Shown here: one piece after another, positions 26,457 through 32,736 of the stretch | Layout: each line of letters starts with the position of its first letter | Numbering within the stretch: position 1 is the stretch's first letter | DNA from: Pseudoxanthomonas sp. PXM03 | Lineage (GTDB): Bacteria; Pseudomonadota; Gammaproteobacteria; Xanthomonadales; Xanthomonadaceae | Length of the DNA: 64,000 bases | NCBI RefSeq assembly: GCF_014852005.1 | Contig: NZ_JACVAU010000001.1 | Span: forward strand, 952,001 to 1,016,000 | Direction of reading: 5' to 3' | Made by a program: the position numbers and the translations under genes | Notes under the pieces: model-generated | What the model saw: only the letters and a program-made list of their open reading frames with translations | Database searches by the model: none | What the model was told of the DNA's origin: nothing

Positions 26457-28484
26457 TTACTGCGCGACGAACCGGATCGCCTGCCCGCCGCCCGGTGCCA
26501 GCTTCAAGGTCAGCGTGTCGCCACGCGTCACGCTGCGCTCCTCGATCACGATGTCCTGGGGGGCGGTCTTCCAGTTCGCCTTGTCGCCATCGCGGTAGAT
26601 CTGCGCCGTGTAGCGGCGGCCTTCGTCGAGGAACGACAGGGGCACGTCCAGCGTGCGGCCGTCTTCGTCAGTGAGCGCACCCAGGTACCAGTTGTCGCCG
26701 CCGCGTTCCTTGCGCGCGATGGTCACGTAGTCGCCGACTTCGCCGTTCAGCACGCGCGTATCCTCCCAGTCCACCGGCACGTCCTTGATGAACTGGAACG
26801 GTGCCGGGTTCTTCTCGTAGTTCTCCAGCAGATCGGCCGCCATCTGCAGCGGGCTGTAGATCACCACGTACAGCGACAGCTGCTTGGCCCAGGTGGTGGC
26901 GATGCCGTCGGTGGAGCGCGTCTTCATGCCGAAGATGCCGGGCGTGTAATCCATCGGTCCGGCCAGCAGGCGGGTGAACACCAGGTTGGCCTCGTGCTCC
27001 GGCGGATTGCCGGGCTGGCCCCACGCGCTGAATTCCATGCCGCGCGCACCCTCGCGGGTGATCCAGTTGGGATACGTGCGGCGCAGGCCGCTGTCCTTGA
27101 TCGGCTCGTGCGGATTGACAGAGATATGACGCTTGGCGGCTTCCGTCACCACCTTCAGGTGATGGCGCGCCATGTCCTGGCCCTCGTGCCACGCGTAGTG
27201 GCGCTTGCCATCGGCGCCGGTGACCTTGGCCTGGCTGGCATCGGCCACGTAACCGGTCTTCACCGCCGGTACGCCCACGCGCTCGTACAGATCGAACGCA
27301 TCAGCCAGCTGCGTTTCGTAGTGCGCGGCGTTGCCCGACGTCTCATGGTGGCCGATCAGCACCACGCCCTTCGATTTCGCGTACGCCGACAGCGCGGGCA
27401 GATCGAAATCCGGATACGACCTGGTGAAGCTGAAGTCCTCGCCGTTGCCGAACCAGTCCCCGTCCCAGCCCACGTTCCAGCCTTCCACCAGCACGCCGCC
27501 TAGGCCGTGCTTCGCGGCGAAGTCGATGTGCTTGCGGACGTTCTCGTTGGTGGCACCGTGCTTCGGCCCGGAAGCCCAGCTCTTCAGCTCCAGGTGCATC
27601 TCCCACCACACGCCGACGTACTTCATCGGTTTGACCCACGACACATCGCCCAGCGCGTTCGGCTCGTTGAGGTTGAGGGTGAGGCTGGACATGGCCAGGC
27701 CGGCGGCATCATCGCTCAGCAGCAGGGTGCGCCATGGGGTATCGAACGGTGCCGCACGCACCACCTTGCCTTCGCCGATGCCCGGAGTCAGGTCCGCCTT
27801 GAGTTTGCGGTCTTCCACCCGCGTCAGGTTCATGCCGCTGTAGTCGACCAGCGCCGCCTCGTGGATGGACAGGTGGCTGCCGTCATCGAACTTGAAGGTG
27901 ATCGGTGTCTGCGCATCGCCGACCTGCTGCAGGGGCGTGCGGTGGTACAGATACTCTTCGCGGTTCCATTCACCGGCGGGAATCCACCACGCCGTCGCAT
28001 CGCGTGCGAGGGCGAACTCGGTCAGCTCCTCGCTGATCTTCACCTGCTCAAGCCCCGCCTGCTTCGGGAAGCGGTAGCGGAAGCCGACGCCGTCGTTGAA
28101 CACGCGGAACACCACGTCGAAGCTGCGGAAGGGCTTGGCCTTCTCCTTCAGCGTGACCGTCAGTTCGTTGTAGTGGTTGCGGATGAAGCGGCGTTCGCCC
28201 CACGGTTGTTCCCAGGTCTCGTCGAACGTGCGCGTGCGCGGCTGCACGATCTCGATGTTGCGCTCGAACTTCGGCGCGTCCAGCAGCAGGAAGCCGAGTC
28301 GCGACGACGAGATGACCGGCTGTCCCTTGCGCGACACGGCGTAGGCGGGGCGGCCGTCGTTGTCGGTGGACAGTTCCACCACGATGGAGCCGTCAGGCGA
28401 TGCGACGCGCGGTCCTGGGGCTGCATGCGCGATGTCCGCGCCGACGGTGAGCAGGACGACGAGCGGAAAGAGATAACGGAGCAT
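26457..28484 (-). CDS. glycoside hydrolase family 97 protein (alpha-glucosidase-like)
   Basis: A 675-residue secreted GH97 enzyme with a signal peptide (LFPLVVLLTVGADIAHA). An N-terminal beta-sandwich precedes the catalytic barrel; motifs include GHHET (E381), NPHEPIKDSGLRRTYPNW (E460) and GARGMEF (E484). The 24-residue spacing E460-E484 equals, as I recall it, that of the catalytic Glu508/Glu532 of SusB, and KTGYV has Gly where retaining members carry the Asp nucleophile; both favour an inverting alpha-glucosidase. A GAGGG site precedes ATG 28484. It probably acts on maltooligosaccharides in the periplasm. Confidence 0.9.
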   Translation of the reverse strand: MLRYLFPLVVLLTVGADIAHAAPGPRVASPDGSIVVELSTDNDGRPAYAVSRKGQPVISSSRLGFLLLDAPKFERNIEIVQPRTRTFDETWEQPWGERRFIRNHYNELTVTLKEKAKPFRSFDVVFRVFNDGVGFRYRFPKQAGLEQVKISEELTEFALARDATAWWIPAGEWNREEYLYHRTPLQQVGDAQTPITFKFDDGSHLSIHEAALVDYSGMNLTRVEDRKLKADLTPGIGEGKVVRAAPFDTPWRTLLLSDDAAGLAMSSLTLNLNEPNALGDVSWVKPMKYVGVWWEMHLELKSWASGPKHGATNENVRKHIDFAAKHGLGGVLVEGWNVGWDGDWFGNGEDFSFTRSYPDFDLPALSAYAKSKGVVLIGHHETSGNAAHYETQLADAFDLYERVGVPAVKTGYVADASQAKVTGADGKRHYAWHEGQDMARHHLKVVTEAAKRHISVNPHEPIKDSGLRRTYPNWITREGARGMEFSAWGQPGNPPEHEANLVFTRLLAGPMDYTPGIFGMKTRSTDGIATTWAKQLSLYVVIYSPLQMAADLLENYEKNPAPFQFIKDVPVDWEDTRVLNGEVGDYVTIARKERGGDNWYLGALTDEDGRTLDVPLSFLDEGRRYTAQIYRDGDKANWKTAPQDIVIEERSVTRGDTLTLKLAPGGGQAIRFVAQ

Positions 28485-28529
28485 GCGACCCTCGCGATGT
28501 GCAGAGGGCCGCATCGTGCGTGGCGGGGC

Positions 28530-29708
28530 TCAGCGCGACAAGCGTCGCGGCATGAATACGTATGCAAGCGCGAGGTGGACCGGCAGCAGCAGCGCGATCC
28601 ATGGCTGGTTGTACTGCAGGCGCAACGGCAGCCAGTGCAGGAACCAGGCGACCAGCGCACCGCCCGCGATGGCGCAGATCAGCCAGCCGAACCAGGCAGG
28701 TGGCGTGCGGCGGCGCAGCACGGAAACTGCGCCGGGAATCAGCAGCACGCAGAGGGGGTTCAACAGCAACAGGTTGCGGTTAGCCCATGCGGCCCAGTGG
28801 TCGGTGAAGCCCCACAGGTAGACCAGAACACCGCCGGCCATGAAACACAGCAGCCAGAACGGCAAGGCAGCGGCGGCGATGGCACGCGGCCAGCGGCGGC
28901 CGGCGAAGCCGATCAGCAACGCCGCCACGACACCCGCGCCGAGCCAGGGCAGCCATCGCCGTGGCGTTTCCGCCGGCTCCGGGGCGATACGGTGCGGCAG
29001 CAATTGCATCTCCGACTGCACCAGGGGTCGGCCTGCACTGTTCTTCGCTTCGCGCAGGCTGTCGGCCAGCCGCATGGGGACATAGGCCTCTTCCCAGCGC
29101 GACATCGGTTTGTCGGCCGAGGGTCCCAGGCCCACGTCGAAGCCCAGCCACATCCATGTTGCCGGCGACGCCAGCCGCACCGCTTCACTGCGAAGCGTAT
29201 TGCCGCGCGAACGGCCGGCGAGCTGCGACTTCAGCGTGCCGCCGAGCGCAGCATCGAGGGCGTCCCGCACCTGCGTGGAGCAGTTGGAGGTGAAGTAGTC
29301 GTAGCGGTAGCGCGCATTCTCCGGCCTGGCCCGTTCGACCAGCGCGTCGGCCAGTGCCTGCGCCTGCGCCGGCGCCAGGTCCAGCCATTGCAGCGAGACG
29401 CCGCGGCCGCTGTCGCGGTACTGCAGGAGATCCTGCTCGAACGGCAGCGCCATGAGGTAGTACATCATGTGGCCGCGGGCGAAATTGCCGACGAAGTCTG
29501 ACTCGCCCGGATCGAAGAAGCCGAAGTTGTACGAGATCGCGTCGCCGCTGGCGGGATCGACCACCACGATGGCGTTGTGACCGAAGCGCTCGAAGAACAC
29601 CTCGCCCGGCTGCATCGTCGCCACGCCGATCCGTGGGGCGGCCCACGCCGTCACGGCCAGCAGCCACAGCACGCCCAGCAGCGCCAGGCGTGCAGCCACG
29701 CTACGCAT
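28530..29708 (-). CDS. DUF4105 / Lnb-type periplasmic-membrane protein
   Basis: A 392-residue protein: signal or anchor helix (residues 5-24), a periplasmic domain to about 255, then five membrane helices. The N-terminal domain has the DUF4105 hallmarks RFGHNAIVVVD (H44), SYNFGFFDPGE, and YDYFTSNCSTQVRDAL (C143), suggesting a Cys-His active site. DHWAAWANRNLLLLNPL in the membrane part is also conserved in the family. This Pfam domain is now linked to Lnb, the lipoprotein N-acyltransferase of Bacteroides. The gene overlaps the corC end by 8 bases, the place where lnt sits in E. coli. Function as an acyltransferase is inference. Confidence 0.85.
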   Translation of the reverse strand: MRSVAARLALLGVLWLLAVTAWAAPRIGVATMQPGEVFFERFGHNAIVVVDPASGDAISYNFGFFDPGESDFVGNFARGHMMYYLMALPFEQDLLQYRDSGRGVSLQWLDLAPAQAQALADALVERARPENARYRYDYFTSNCSTQVRDALDAALGGTLKSQLAGRSRGNTLRSEAVRLASPATWMWLGFDVGLGPSADKPMSRWEEAYVPMRLADSLREAKNSAGRPLVQSEMQLLPHRIAPEPAETPRRWLPWLGAGVVAALLIGFAGRRWPRAIAAAALPFWLLCFMAGGVLVYLWGFTDHWAAWANRNLLLLNPLCVLLIPGAVSVLRRRTPPAWFGWLICAIAGGALVAWFLHWLPLRLQYNQPWIALLLPVHLALAYVFMPRRLSR

Positions 29709-30576
29709 CGGCGAGCACCCCGACATGGAAGGCGTGTACGCGGCGCGCATCGGCCCGGGCGACACGGAACATGAAGCGCCCGAGCGTGAGCTCCTCGCCG
29801 GTCTCCGGCAGGTGGCCTATCGCGGCGGTGATGAGGCCGCCGACGGTGTCGTATTCGTCGTCGGGGAAATCCGCGCCGAAACGCTCGTTGAAGTCGGCGA
29901 TGGGCGTGAGCGCATCCACCACGAACTGGCCATCGGCCTGCGCGGCGATCAGCGCGGCGCCATCCTCGGCTTCATCGTGTTCGTCGTCGATCTCGCCGAC
30001 GATCTGTTCCAGCACGTCCTCGATGGTGACCAGGCCGGCCACGCCGCCATACTCGTCGACGACGATCGCCATGTGGTTGCGCGACAGGCGGAATTCCTTC
30101 AGCAGCAGGTTGAGCTTCTTCGACTCGGGGATCAGCACGGCGGGGCGCAGCAGTTCGCGCACGCTGCCGGGCCCGTTGTCGGCCACCACGCCGCGCAGCA
30201 GGTCCTTGGCCAGCAGGATGCCGAGGATCTCGTCCTTGTCGTCGCCGTGCACCGGGAAGCGCGAGTGGCCGGATTCGACCACGTCTTTCATCAGGTCGAG
30301 GAAGCGCGCCTCGACGGGCAACGAAACCATCTGCGCGCGCGGCACCATGACATCGCCCACGGTGAGGTCGGCGACGGCGATGGCGCCTTCCATCATCTTC
30401 AGGGTATCGCCGCCGATCAGGCCGTCGGACTGCGCATCGCGCAGGATGGCCACCAGGTCGTCGCGTGTGCTGGGTTCGCCGGAGAACGCCGAACTGAGGC
30501 GGTCCAGCCAGGAGCGCCGTTTCTCCGACGGTTTGTCGGAGCCATCCGGCGCGAAGGTACTGTCGTCTTCTGACAT
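29701..30576 (-). CDS. corC: CorC/HlyC-family CBS-domain protein
   Basis: A 291-residue soluble protein (YbeX type) with tandem CBS domains (VGDVMVPRAQMVSLP to about residue 195; GLVTIEDVLEQIVGEIDDEHD) and a C-terminal CorC/HlyC transporter-associated domain. Such proteins are linked to Mg2+/Co2+ homeostasis and, in YbeX, to ribosome function. Start ATG 30576 fits a 291-aa YbeX; its end overlaps the DUF4105 gene. It belongs to the miaB-ybeZ-ybeY-corC group. Confidence 0.93.
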   Translation of the reverse strand: MSEDDSTFAPDGSDKPSEKRRSWLDRLSSAFSGEPSTRDDLVAILRDAQSDGLIGGDTLKMMEGAIAVADLTVGDVMVPRAQMVSLPVEARFLDLMKDVVESGHSRFPVHGDDKDEILGILLAKDLLRGVVADNGPGSVRELLRPAVLIPESKKLNLLLKEFRLSRNHMAIVVDEYGGVAGLVTIEDVLEQIVGEIDDEHDEAEDGAALIAAQADGQFVVDALTPIADFNERFGADFPDDEYDTVGGLITAAIGHLPETGEELTLGRFMFRVARADARRVHAFHVGVLADA

Positions 30577-30614: not shown

Positions 30615-31205
30615 CTAACCCGGTTGGGCGCCGGACGCAGGCGGCGCGGCCTCGGCGGGCGGTGCTGCTTCGTCCGCGGGCGCTTCCTCCGGAAGGTCCA
30701 GGCTGTAACTGCAGCCCACCAGTGTCTTGCCGGGGTGCGAGGCGACGTTGCTGACGTTCAATACGGCCGATTCGATCAGCAGCTCGCCGGTCGCGACGTC
30801 GCGGGTTTCCTCGCTGCGCAGCTCCTTGCCGAACATCGCCTTGGCCGGCGTGTCGATCGCGGTTTCGAGCGCCAGTTGCTTCGCCAGCGGCCGGGGATCG
30901 GGCAGGTCGAGCAGTGCGATCACGCCGCCGCCGGAGAACGCGATGTGGTCTGTGTCGTGCCCGAAGACGCGGATCGGCTTGGCCAACCGGTATTCGGTCA
31001 TGAACATGTTCGCCTGCGGCAGCGGCTGCCATCCCAGCGCGACCGCCTTCAGCGGGTCCTCCAGGGCGGGTGCAAGCGCGGTCAAGCGGGTGATGTCGCT
31101 TCGGCACTCGATCAGTGCGGGCAGGTCTGGCGGGGCGTCCTGCGCGGCGGCAGGCGAGGAGAGGACCAGTGCCAACGTCGGCACGAACAGCAGGGTGCGC
31201 AGCAT
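30615..31205 (-). CDS. secreted protein of unknown function
   Basis: A 196-residue protein with a clear signal peptide (LLFVPTLALVLSSPAAA, cleavage near residue 21). The mature part has two cysteines (C34 and one near 166, in LVGCSYSL) that could form a disulfide, and the tail from about residue 172 is low-complexity Glu/Ala/Pro. I recognise no family. It is placed between ybeY (4-base gap) and corC (38-base gap), where E. coli has no gene. Role unknown; periplasmic location is a prediction. Confidence 0.82.
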   Translation of the reverse strand: MLRTLLFVPTLALVLSSPAAAQDAPPDLPALIECRSDITRLTALAPALEDPLKAVALGWQPLPQANMFMTEYRLAKPIRVFGHDTDHIAFSGGGVIALLDLPDPRPLAKQLALETAIDTPAKAMFGKELRSEETRDVATGELLIESAVLNVSNVASHPGKTLVGCSYSLDLPEEAPADEAAPPAEAAPPASGAQPG

Positions 31206-31209
31206 GCGG

Positions 31210-31698
31210 TCAGTCTTCCGCGTAAGGATCGGCGATGCCGAGTTCGGCGAGGATCTCGCGCTCCAGCTGCTCCATGCACTCGGCTTCCTTGTCGTCCTCG
31301 TGGTCCCAGCCCAGCAGGTGCAATGCACCGTGCACGGTCATGTGCGCGTAGTGCGCTGCCAGCGGCTTCTTCTGCTCCTTCGCTTCGCGCGCCACGACCG
31401 GTGCGCAGATCACCAGGTCGCCGAGCAGGGGCATCTTGACGCCCTTGGGCAACTTGACGCCTTCGGCCATCTCGGCCGGGAAGCTCAGCACGTTGGTCGC
31501 GTAGTCGCGACCGCGATAGTGCCGGTTCAGTGCGCGGCCTTCCTTGCTGTCGACGATGCGGATGGCCAGATCCGCTTCGCGGATGCGGCCTTTCAACGCC
31601 GCTGCCACCCATTTGCGGAAACTGACCGCCGAAGGGATGCCGGTGCGCGGCAGGGCGTAGTTCACTGAGACTTCGAGGCGGACGGGGCCTTGGGTCAT
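31210..31698 (-). CDS. ybeY: endoribonuclease YbeY
   Basis: A 162-residue metal-dependent RNase involved in 16S rRNA 3'-end maturation and ribosome quality control. The zinc motif [11 protein letters not shown] provides H123, H127 and H133, and the central NVLSFP motif is present. Length matches the family. It follows ybeZ with 24 bases between them and is followed by an unknown secreted protein. Confidence 0.96.
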
Positions 31699-31722: not shown

Positions 31723-32706
31723 TCAGGCAGGGCCGGTCTCGGCATCCTTGCCATCGCGTGCATCGTAAGCCCGCACGATCTTCGCCACCAGCGGATGACG
31801 CACCACGTCGCGGCTGGTGAAGAAGTTGAACGAGATGCCGTCCACGCCGCGCAGGACGTCCAGCGCATCCTTCAGGCCGGACTTCTGGTGCTTGGGCAGG
31901 TCGATCTGGGTCAGGTCGCCGGTGACGACGGCGGTGCTGCCGTACCCGATGCGGGTCAGGAACATCTTCATCTGTTCGATGGTGGTGTTCTGCGCTTCGT
32001 CGAGGATGACGAAGGCATCGTTGAGCGTGCGGCCGCGCATGTAGGCCAGCGGCGCGATCTCGATGACGTTCTTTTCCAGCAGCTTGACCACCTTCTCCAC
32101 GCCCAGCATCTCGTACAGCGCGTCGTACAGCGGGCGCAGGTAGGGGTCGACCTTCTGGGTCAGGTCGCCGGGCAGGAAGCCGAGCTTCTCGCCGGCCTCC
32201 ACTGCCGGGCGCACCAGGATCAGGCGTTGCACGCGCGATTCGTTGAGCGCTTCCACCGCGCTGGCGACGGCCAAGAACGTCTTGCCGGTACCGGCCGGGC
32301 CGATGCCGAAATTGATGTCGTGGGTGGCGATGGCGTGCAGGTACTTCGCCTGGTTGGCGCCACGGCCACGCACGGTGCCGCGCTTGACCTTGATGGCCAC
32401 GTCCTGGGGCAGGTAGTCCTCTTCCGCCACGCGGTCCACGTTGGCGGCGTTGAGCCGCAGGTGGATGGCCTCGCTGTCGAACGTTTCGCTGGCCGCTTCC
32501 TCATACAGCGCATGCAGCAGTTTTTCCGTGGCGGCGACGGATTTCTCCGGCCCGGTGACACGGAAGATGGCGCCGCGGTTGGCGATCTCCACGCCCAGGC
32601 GCAGTTCGATTTGGCGCAGGTTCGCGTCGAACGGGCCCGCCAGGTTTGCGAGGCGCTCGACGTTCTCGGGTTGCAGGGTGAATTCGTGCTTGCTGGGGGC
32701 AGTCAT
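31723..32706 (-). CDS. ybeZ: PhoH-family ATPase YbeZ
   Basis: A 327-residue PhoH-like P-loop ATPase, partner of YbeY in rRNA metabolism. A KH-like N-terminal region precedes Walker A GPAGTGKT at 136-143, and Walker B is [10 protein letters not shown]. Start at ATG 32706 (MTAPSKHEF) is preferred to an upstream TTG at 32730. First gene of the ybeZ-ybeY-X-corC-DUF4105 run after a 30-base gap from a small unknown gene. Confidence 0.95.
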
Positions 32707-32736
32707 GGGGCGGGGGAATACTCGTGGCAATAGCGG

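Follow-up and report, generated by a model that had tools for sequence, protein, structure and literature searches.

A new Lnb family member, by its domains and residues, most likely does the job of Lnt in the xanthomonad order

The lipoprotein N-acyltransferase gene lnt is essential in E. coli. It is near-universal in the Gammaproteobacteria, with a match over the cut-off in 255 of the 272 class genomes sampled outside the order considered here, and yet xanthomonads have been reported to be without it. The available part of a structural study describes X. campestris B100 as having no lnt and models diacyl lipoprotein anchors for that reason (PMC10368991), and a BUSCO table, in the part of its source at hand, counts apolipoprotein N-acyltransferase among the BUSCO genes not found in Xylella fastidiosa, X. 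vasicola and X. albilineans (PMC7828034). Which enzyme, if any, does the job of Lnt in these bacteria is the question raised by an lnb-like gene behind corC in the window, a stretch of 64,000 nucleotides of contig NZ_JACVAU010000001.1 from Pseudoxanthomonas sp. PXM03. The features of this locus are as follows:

28530..29708, minus strand: the lnb-like gene, 392 amino acids, with its ATG at 29708 and its stop ending at 28530 (ORF list)
29238..29618, minus strand: Lnb_N (PF13387, DUF4105) domain, residues 31-157 (Pfam)
28554..28895, minus strand: 5TMH_Lnb (PF25221) domain, residues 272-385 (Pfam)
29577..29579, minus strand: codon of H44, the proposed catalytic histidine, invariant in 71 of 71, 81 of 81 and 13 of 13 alignment rows
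29280..29282, minus strand: codon of C143, the cysteine proposed to accept the acyl group, where helix 143-154 begins (alignments; AlphaFold2 helix)
29701..29708, minus strand: 8-base overlap of the corC end and the lnb-like start (ORF coordinates)
29701..30576, minus strand: corC/ybeX, 291 amino acids, directly upstream of the lnb-like gene, a conserved neighbour with CBS and CorC_HlyC domains
31210..31698, minus strand: ybeY (YbeY domain, 118 bits)
31723..32730, minus strand: ybeZ, a PhoH-like ATPase (PhoH domain, 319 bits)

The encoded protein consists of an N-terminal signal or anchor helix, a predicted periplasmic domain and five C-terminal helices. An earlier, sequence-only reading of this locus had described an 8-base overlap with corC, and the coordinates bear it out, with the corC ORF ending at 29701 and the lnb-like gene starting at 29708. 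Two more genes on the minus strand complete the neighbourhood: an ORF between ybeY and corC (30615-31328) has a signal-peptide-like stretch and is without a Pfam match, while a gene for a GH97 family glycoside hydrolase (26457-28514) begins 15 bases past the lnb-like stop and may be co-transcribed with the lnb-like gene.

Judged by its domains, the 392-residue protein is a member of the wider Lnb family that lies outside NCBI's equivalog. Lnb, the subject of a 2024 PNAS paper by Armbruster, was reportedly discovered in Bacteroides. The Lnb_N domain, which is the current Pfam name for DUF4105, scores 57.9 bits against a cut-off of 22.2, confirming the DUF4105-type domain that the sequence-only reading had recognized, and 5TMH_Lnb narrowly exceeds its cut-off (26.3 against 25.2 bits), with the five order relatives scanned scoring 25.6 to 40.8 bits. 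The NCBIfam equivalog for Lnb, NF051878, matches residues 26-335 with E 3.8e-43 and 147.8 bits, below its cut-off of 550 bits. Missing this cut-off is not decisive, because the proteins of Parabacteroides distasonis (398 bits) and Hymenobacter (220 bits) miss it too, and B. finegoldii (667 bits) is the only one of the three Bacteroidota proteins scanned to pass. The comparison with Bacteroides Lnb that had been suggested as a test was run by BLASTP against the B. finegoldii protein, and gave 27% identity over 320 residues (E 2e-35, 8 gap positions), reaching into the membrane part. With the Bacteroidota alignment and the Pfam matches, this upholds the proposed link to Lnb over both domains. 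The 392-residue protein has no match to the Lnt model in NCBIfam at E values up to 1. Bacteroides Lnb (NF051878; PF13387 and PF25221) thus shares both domains, their order, the His and Cys residues and nearly the length (390 residues) of the xanthomonad protein, but differs from it at the level of sequence identity and equivalog score, while the host here is a gammaproteobacterium. The loci also differ, as lnb adjoins an alkaline-phosphatase-family gene in those loci of Bacteroides and Parabacteroides that were seen, whereas the xanthomonad gene lies in the corC slot.

Translation of the ORF places H44 and C143 where they had first been read, and both residues are invariant in three alignments. 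This holds for 71 of 71 order rows (the 392-residue protein and 70 of 74 matched loci, the own-genome locus and incomplete ones having been dropped; some rows are one gene repeated, from overlapping loci), for 81 of 81 rows comprising the 392-residue protein and the best 80 of 506 named relatives, and for 13 of 13 rows of which five are from Bacteroidota. The Bacteroidota Lnb-like genes in question come from five plasmid records, found by a protein search with an order relative (L002) as query. Invariant columns number 22 in the 13-row alignment and include G43, H44, N142, C143, G292, H304, N310 and P318; the proposed check of the two residues against Bacteroidota Lnb was thereby run, and both align with residues invariant there. 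An AlphaFold2 model built from a 46-row alignment (mean pLDDT 89.6, pTM 0.85) begins a strand at H44 and a helix at C143. Its main C-terminal helices span residues 252-272, 274-301, 318-331, 338-359 and 368-384, the third being short, so that the five helices counted from the sequence are recovered.

Searching the PDB with this model returned nothing at E 0.001 or better, and the sequence search of the PDB nothing related (nine matches up to E 1, the best at 0.42). The top structural match was the effector TseH (6v98), with a probability of 1.00, E 9.2e-3, an rmsd of 6.3 and TM-scores of 0.22 (query) and 0.42 (target); the predicted fold may resemble that of TseH. To our knowledge, neither TseH nor the related Tox-Act1 carries an Lnb membrane domain. 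The accessible part of PMC12994826 assigns TseH and Tox-Act1, together with DUF4105, to the permuted NlpC/P60 group with its conserved His and Cys, and describes the two proteins, unlike the protein discussed here, as antibacterial effectors. The same source also counts phospholipases and other acyltransferases in this group (PMC12994826, in part), which leads to a different account of the gene, namely that it encodes an Lnb-family cysteine acyltransferase or phospholipase acting on some other substrate, with xanthomonad lipoproteins diacylated as deduced in PMC10368991. The modest Lnb family score would suit such an enzyme, as would the failure of the X. campestris authors to find Lnt (PMC10368991, in part), but the protein has kept the Lnb membrane domain, the gene occupies the lnt slot, and its genome has no lnt and no second Lnb match; we therefore regard another substrate as improbable.

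The genome is informative on this last point. Its assembly (4.03 Mb, rated 100% complete) contains one Lnb match and an Lgt over its cut-off, while the genome-wide search with the Lnt model TIGR00546 gave a single match, of 31.3 bits over positions 299-387, where the cut-off stands at 132.9. That match is a 296-residue ORF at another locus, which has a CN_hydrolase domain and is without LNT_N. The whole-genome search for lnt, proposed in the sequence-only reading as the way to probe its own claim, thus found no normal lnt elsewhere in the genome, and of the two roles which that reading had offered, replacing or backing up Lnt, the absence of lnt makes replacement the better fit to this genome. 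Lnt and the lnb-like product would share the reaction they are presumed to carry out, and they share the corC-linked slot, which Lnt holds both elsewhere in the Gammaproteobacteria and in the order's family f6, but Lnt is built from unrelated domains (LNT_N and CN_hydrolase).

How far the slot is conserved was followed in a non-random sample of 80 entries (79 genomes and one second copy) that combined the highest scorers with family representatives and weak cases. Three of the 79 genomes have Lnt and no Lnb, and among the 76 Lnb-bearing ones, corC lies directly upstream on the same strand in 74, spread over 11 of the order's 12 families. The exceptions are G052, whose locus ends at a contig end, and G179 (locus L024). 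For the best 80 of 506 named relatives, corC was present in 80 of 80 stretches, its position ranging from an overlap estimated at 10 bases to a distance of 666 bases upstream; none of the 80 stretches holds a match to Lnt. The genera among these include Pseudoxanthomonas, Xanthomonas, Stenotrophomonas, Lysobacter and Luteimonas, among others, and the closest named relatives among the matches listed are Pseudoxanthomonas, Xanthomonas and Stenotrophomonas, in keeping with the xanthomonad host that had been assumed. Among the 15 best-scoring Lnt loci of the class, 14 likewise have corC directly upstream. Gene order by itself is weak evidence, and the slot could be a coincidence of operon structure in which the gene is unconnected to lipoproteins; we give this account hardly any credence, since the homology to Lnb is independent of position and the slot is kept across the families and in every one of the 80 named loci. 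Two loci stand apart from this pattern: the stretch fetched for G179, the sole uncut exception among the genomes examined, holds no corC, and G038 has a second, divergent Lnb copy (L125) that is without an adjoining corC.

Taken with the family membership, these results make it very probable that the gene encodes an Lnb-type lipoprotein N-acyltransferase that stands in for the absent Lnt in the corC-linked slot. Analogy with Lnb and with the permuted NlpC/P60 acyltransferases suggests that the acyl group would reside on C143, that H44 would serve as the base, and that the C-terminal helices would anchor the enzyme at the inner membrane. For the same gene we infer catalysis, the acyl donor, the thioester step, lipoprotein triacylation and essentiality.

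Across the order, the Lnb model was matched at E 0.001 in 210 of 220 sampled genomes and in 166 of the 169 of good quality, none of the 220 having a match over 550 bits, and Lnt was over its cut-off in 26 of the 220. Lnb is missing from three genomes of good quality, G006, G017 and G019, which have the three best Lnt scores (304.5, 298.5 and 304.6 bits, respectively). Lnt directly follows corC in G006 and G017, both of family f6. Another seven genomes, of lower quality, have no Lnb and no Lnt over its cut-off; these may be incomplete. G019 was rejected as an Lnt-bearing member of the order, although retained within the 169: its rpoB is broken into two frames, the second part being 57-68% identical to the rpoB of all 26 other genomes, its CorC is 29% identical and its YbeZ is divergent. 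It is likely a misplaced or noisy assembly, and no evidence for a swap is drawn from it.

In the other 23 of the 26 Lnt-bearing genomes (23 of all 220), the Lnt-family protein over the cut-off occurs alongside an Lnb match, which in one of them, G052, is weak and fragmentary, at the end of a contig. The exclusion between Lnb and Lnt is therefore true of the slot and not of the genome. A manual count found a further 17 order genomes with an Lnt-like match of 70-106 bits, under the cut-off. The 23 proteins over the cut-off speak for a third account, in which another N-acyltransferase, such as a distant Lnt paralog, does the acylation and the lnb-like gene is accessory; the two of the 23 that were scanned have both LNT_N and CN_hydrolase. 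Among 30 named genomes taken from the best 80 of 506, Lnt was over the cut-off in two, both Lysobacter, and three more had Lnt-like matches under it, at 74-98 bits (X. pisi, X. codiaei and Luteimonas kalidii). However, 28 of the 30 have no Lnt over the cut-off, and the one Lnt match of the Pseudoxanthomonas genome is the CN_hydrolase protein without LNT_N, so that we consider an accessory role very unlikely. The number of LolC/E proteins was tried as an indicator of the acylation state and dropped, because each of the 15 genomes tested has one over the cut-off, Lnt-bearing ones included.

To look beyond the order, we examined a class sample of 276 genomes with a completeness of 90% or more; four belong to the window's family and 272 lie outside the order. 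Full-length Lnb was present solely in the four and in none (0) of the 272, while 17 of the 272 lack both full-length Lnb and an Lnt above the cut-off. Partial matches to the Lnb model (18-31 bits) occur in 23 of these other class genomes, at least 21 of which also have a strong Lnt match. The frames concerned, of 612-845 residues, have Lnb_N only and weakly match the first part of the model; they differ from xanthomonad Lnb in these low scores and in lying mostly in genomes with a strong Lnt. The frames of about 610-850 residues at L044-L067 and L146-L154 are probably a different DUF4105 protein. A survey of 398 genomes of the phylum found strong Lnb in 10, all of this order, and 16 others scoring under 29 bits.

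In a tree of 27 Lnb rows, the 22 from the order and the five from Bacteroidota fall on opposite sides of a split with support of 99/96, which would be compatible with a single exchange in either direction. In the rpoB tree (27 rows, G019 included; a single gene with four outgroups), the Lnt label must change twice or more, and the lineages bearing Lnb do not group as a single clade. Given these label changes, family f6 may have either kept or regained Lnt, and Lnb may have entered once or more often. A 16S comparison was set aside, with 16S obtained from only 6 of 19 genomes. On the whole, we think it likely that nearly the entire order, including Xanthomonas, Stenotrophomonas, Lysobacter, Pseudoxanthomonas, Luteimonas and their kin, makes triacylated lipoproteins by means of an Lnb-type cysteine acyltransferase in the slot of Lnt, that a single exchange with a Bacteroidota-like lineage brought in Lnb, which became indispensable, and that the supposed diacyl lipoproteins do not exist. 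Xanthomonas and its relatives appear to have lost Lnt, their lipoproteins would probably be three-chained and not two-chained, and the lnb-like gene is likely to be the missing acyltransferase gene in the case of X. campestris.

The idea of an exchange between DUF4105 proteins and Lnt is already known, because the accessible part of PMC12994826 describes three genomic contexts in which Lnt displaces DUF4105 proteins. No word beginning with "Xanthomon" occurs in the main text of that paper, while its figure and supplement might include the corC slot. Among the papers listed in one open-licence library, we saw none linking Lnb or DUF4105 to xanthomonads, nor one applying the exchange to the xanthomonad order with this candidate enzyme. 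On the strength of domains and residues, the candidate is a new Lnb family member that most likely does the job of Lnt. Almost order-wide, in an order that includes important plant-associated bacteria, one enzyme occupies the operon slot of an unrelated one, and with two mutable residues it is a specific and directly testable candidate for the missing N-acylation in xanthomonads.

The Lnt-family proteins that coexist with Lnb are of more than one kind. Their frames exceed 800 residues in 16 of the 23 genomes and measure 434-563 residues in the other 7, the longer kind having a long C-terminal extension. Five of the 23 loci (L035-L039) have no corC within them. At L036, L037 and L038 (G136, G003 and G011, respectively), where corC is absent, a small protein with one hydrophobic stretch was seen by eye upstream, and the Lnt-family protein of L036 has LNT_N and CN_hydrolase domains.
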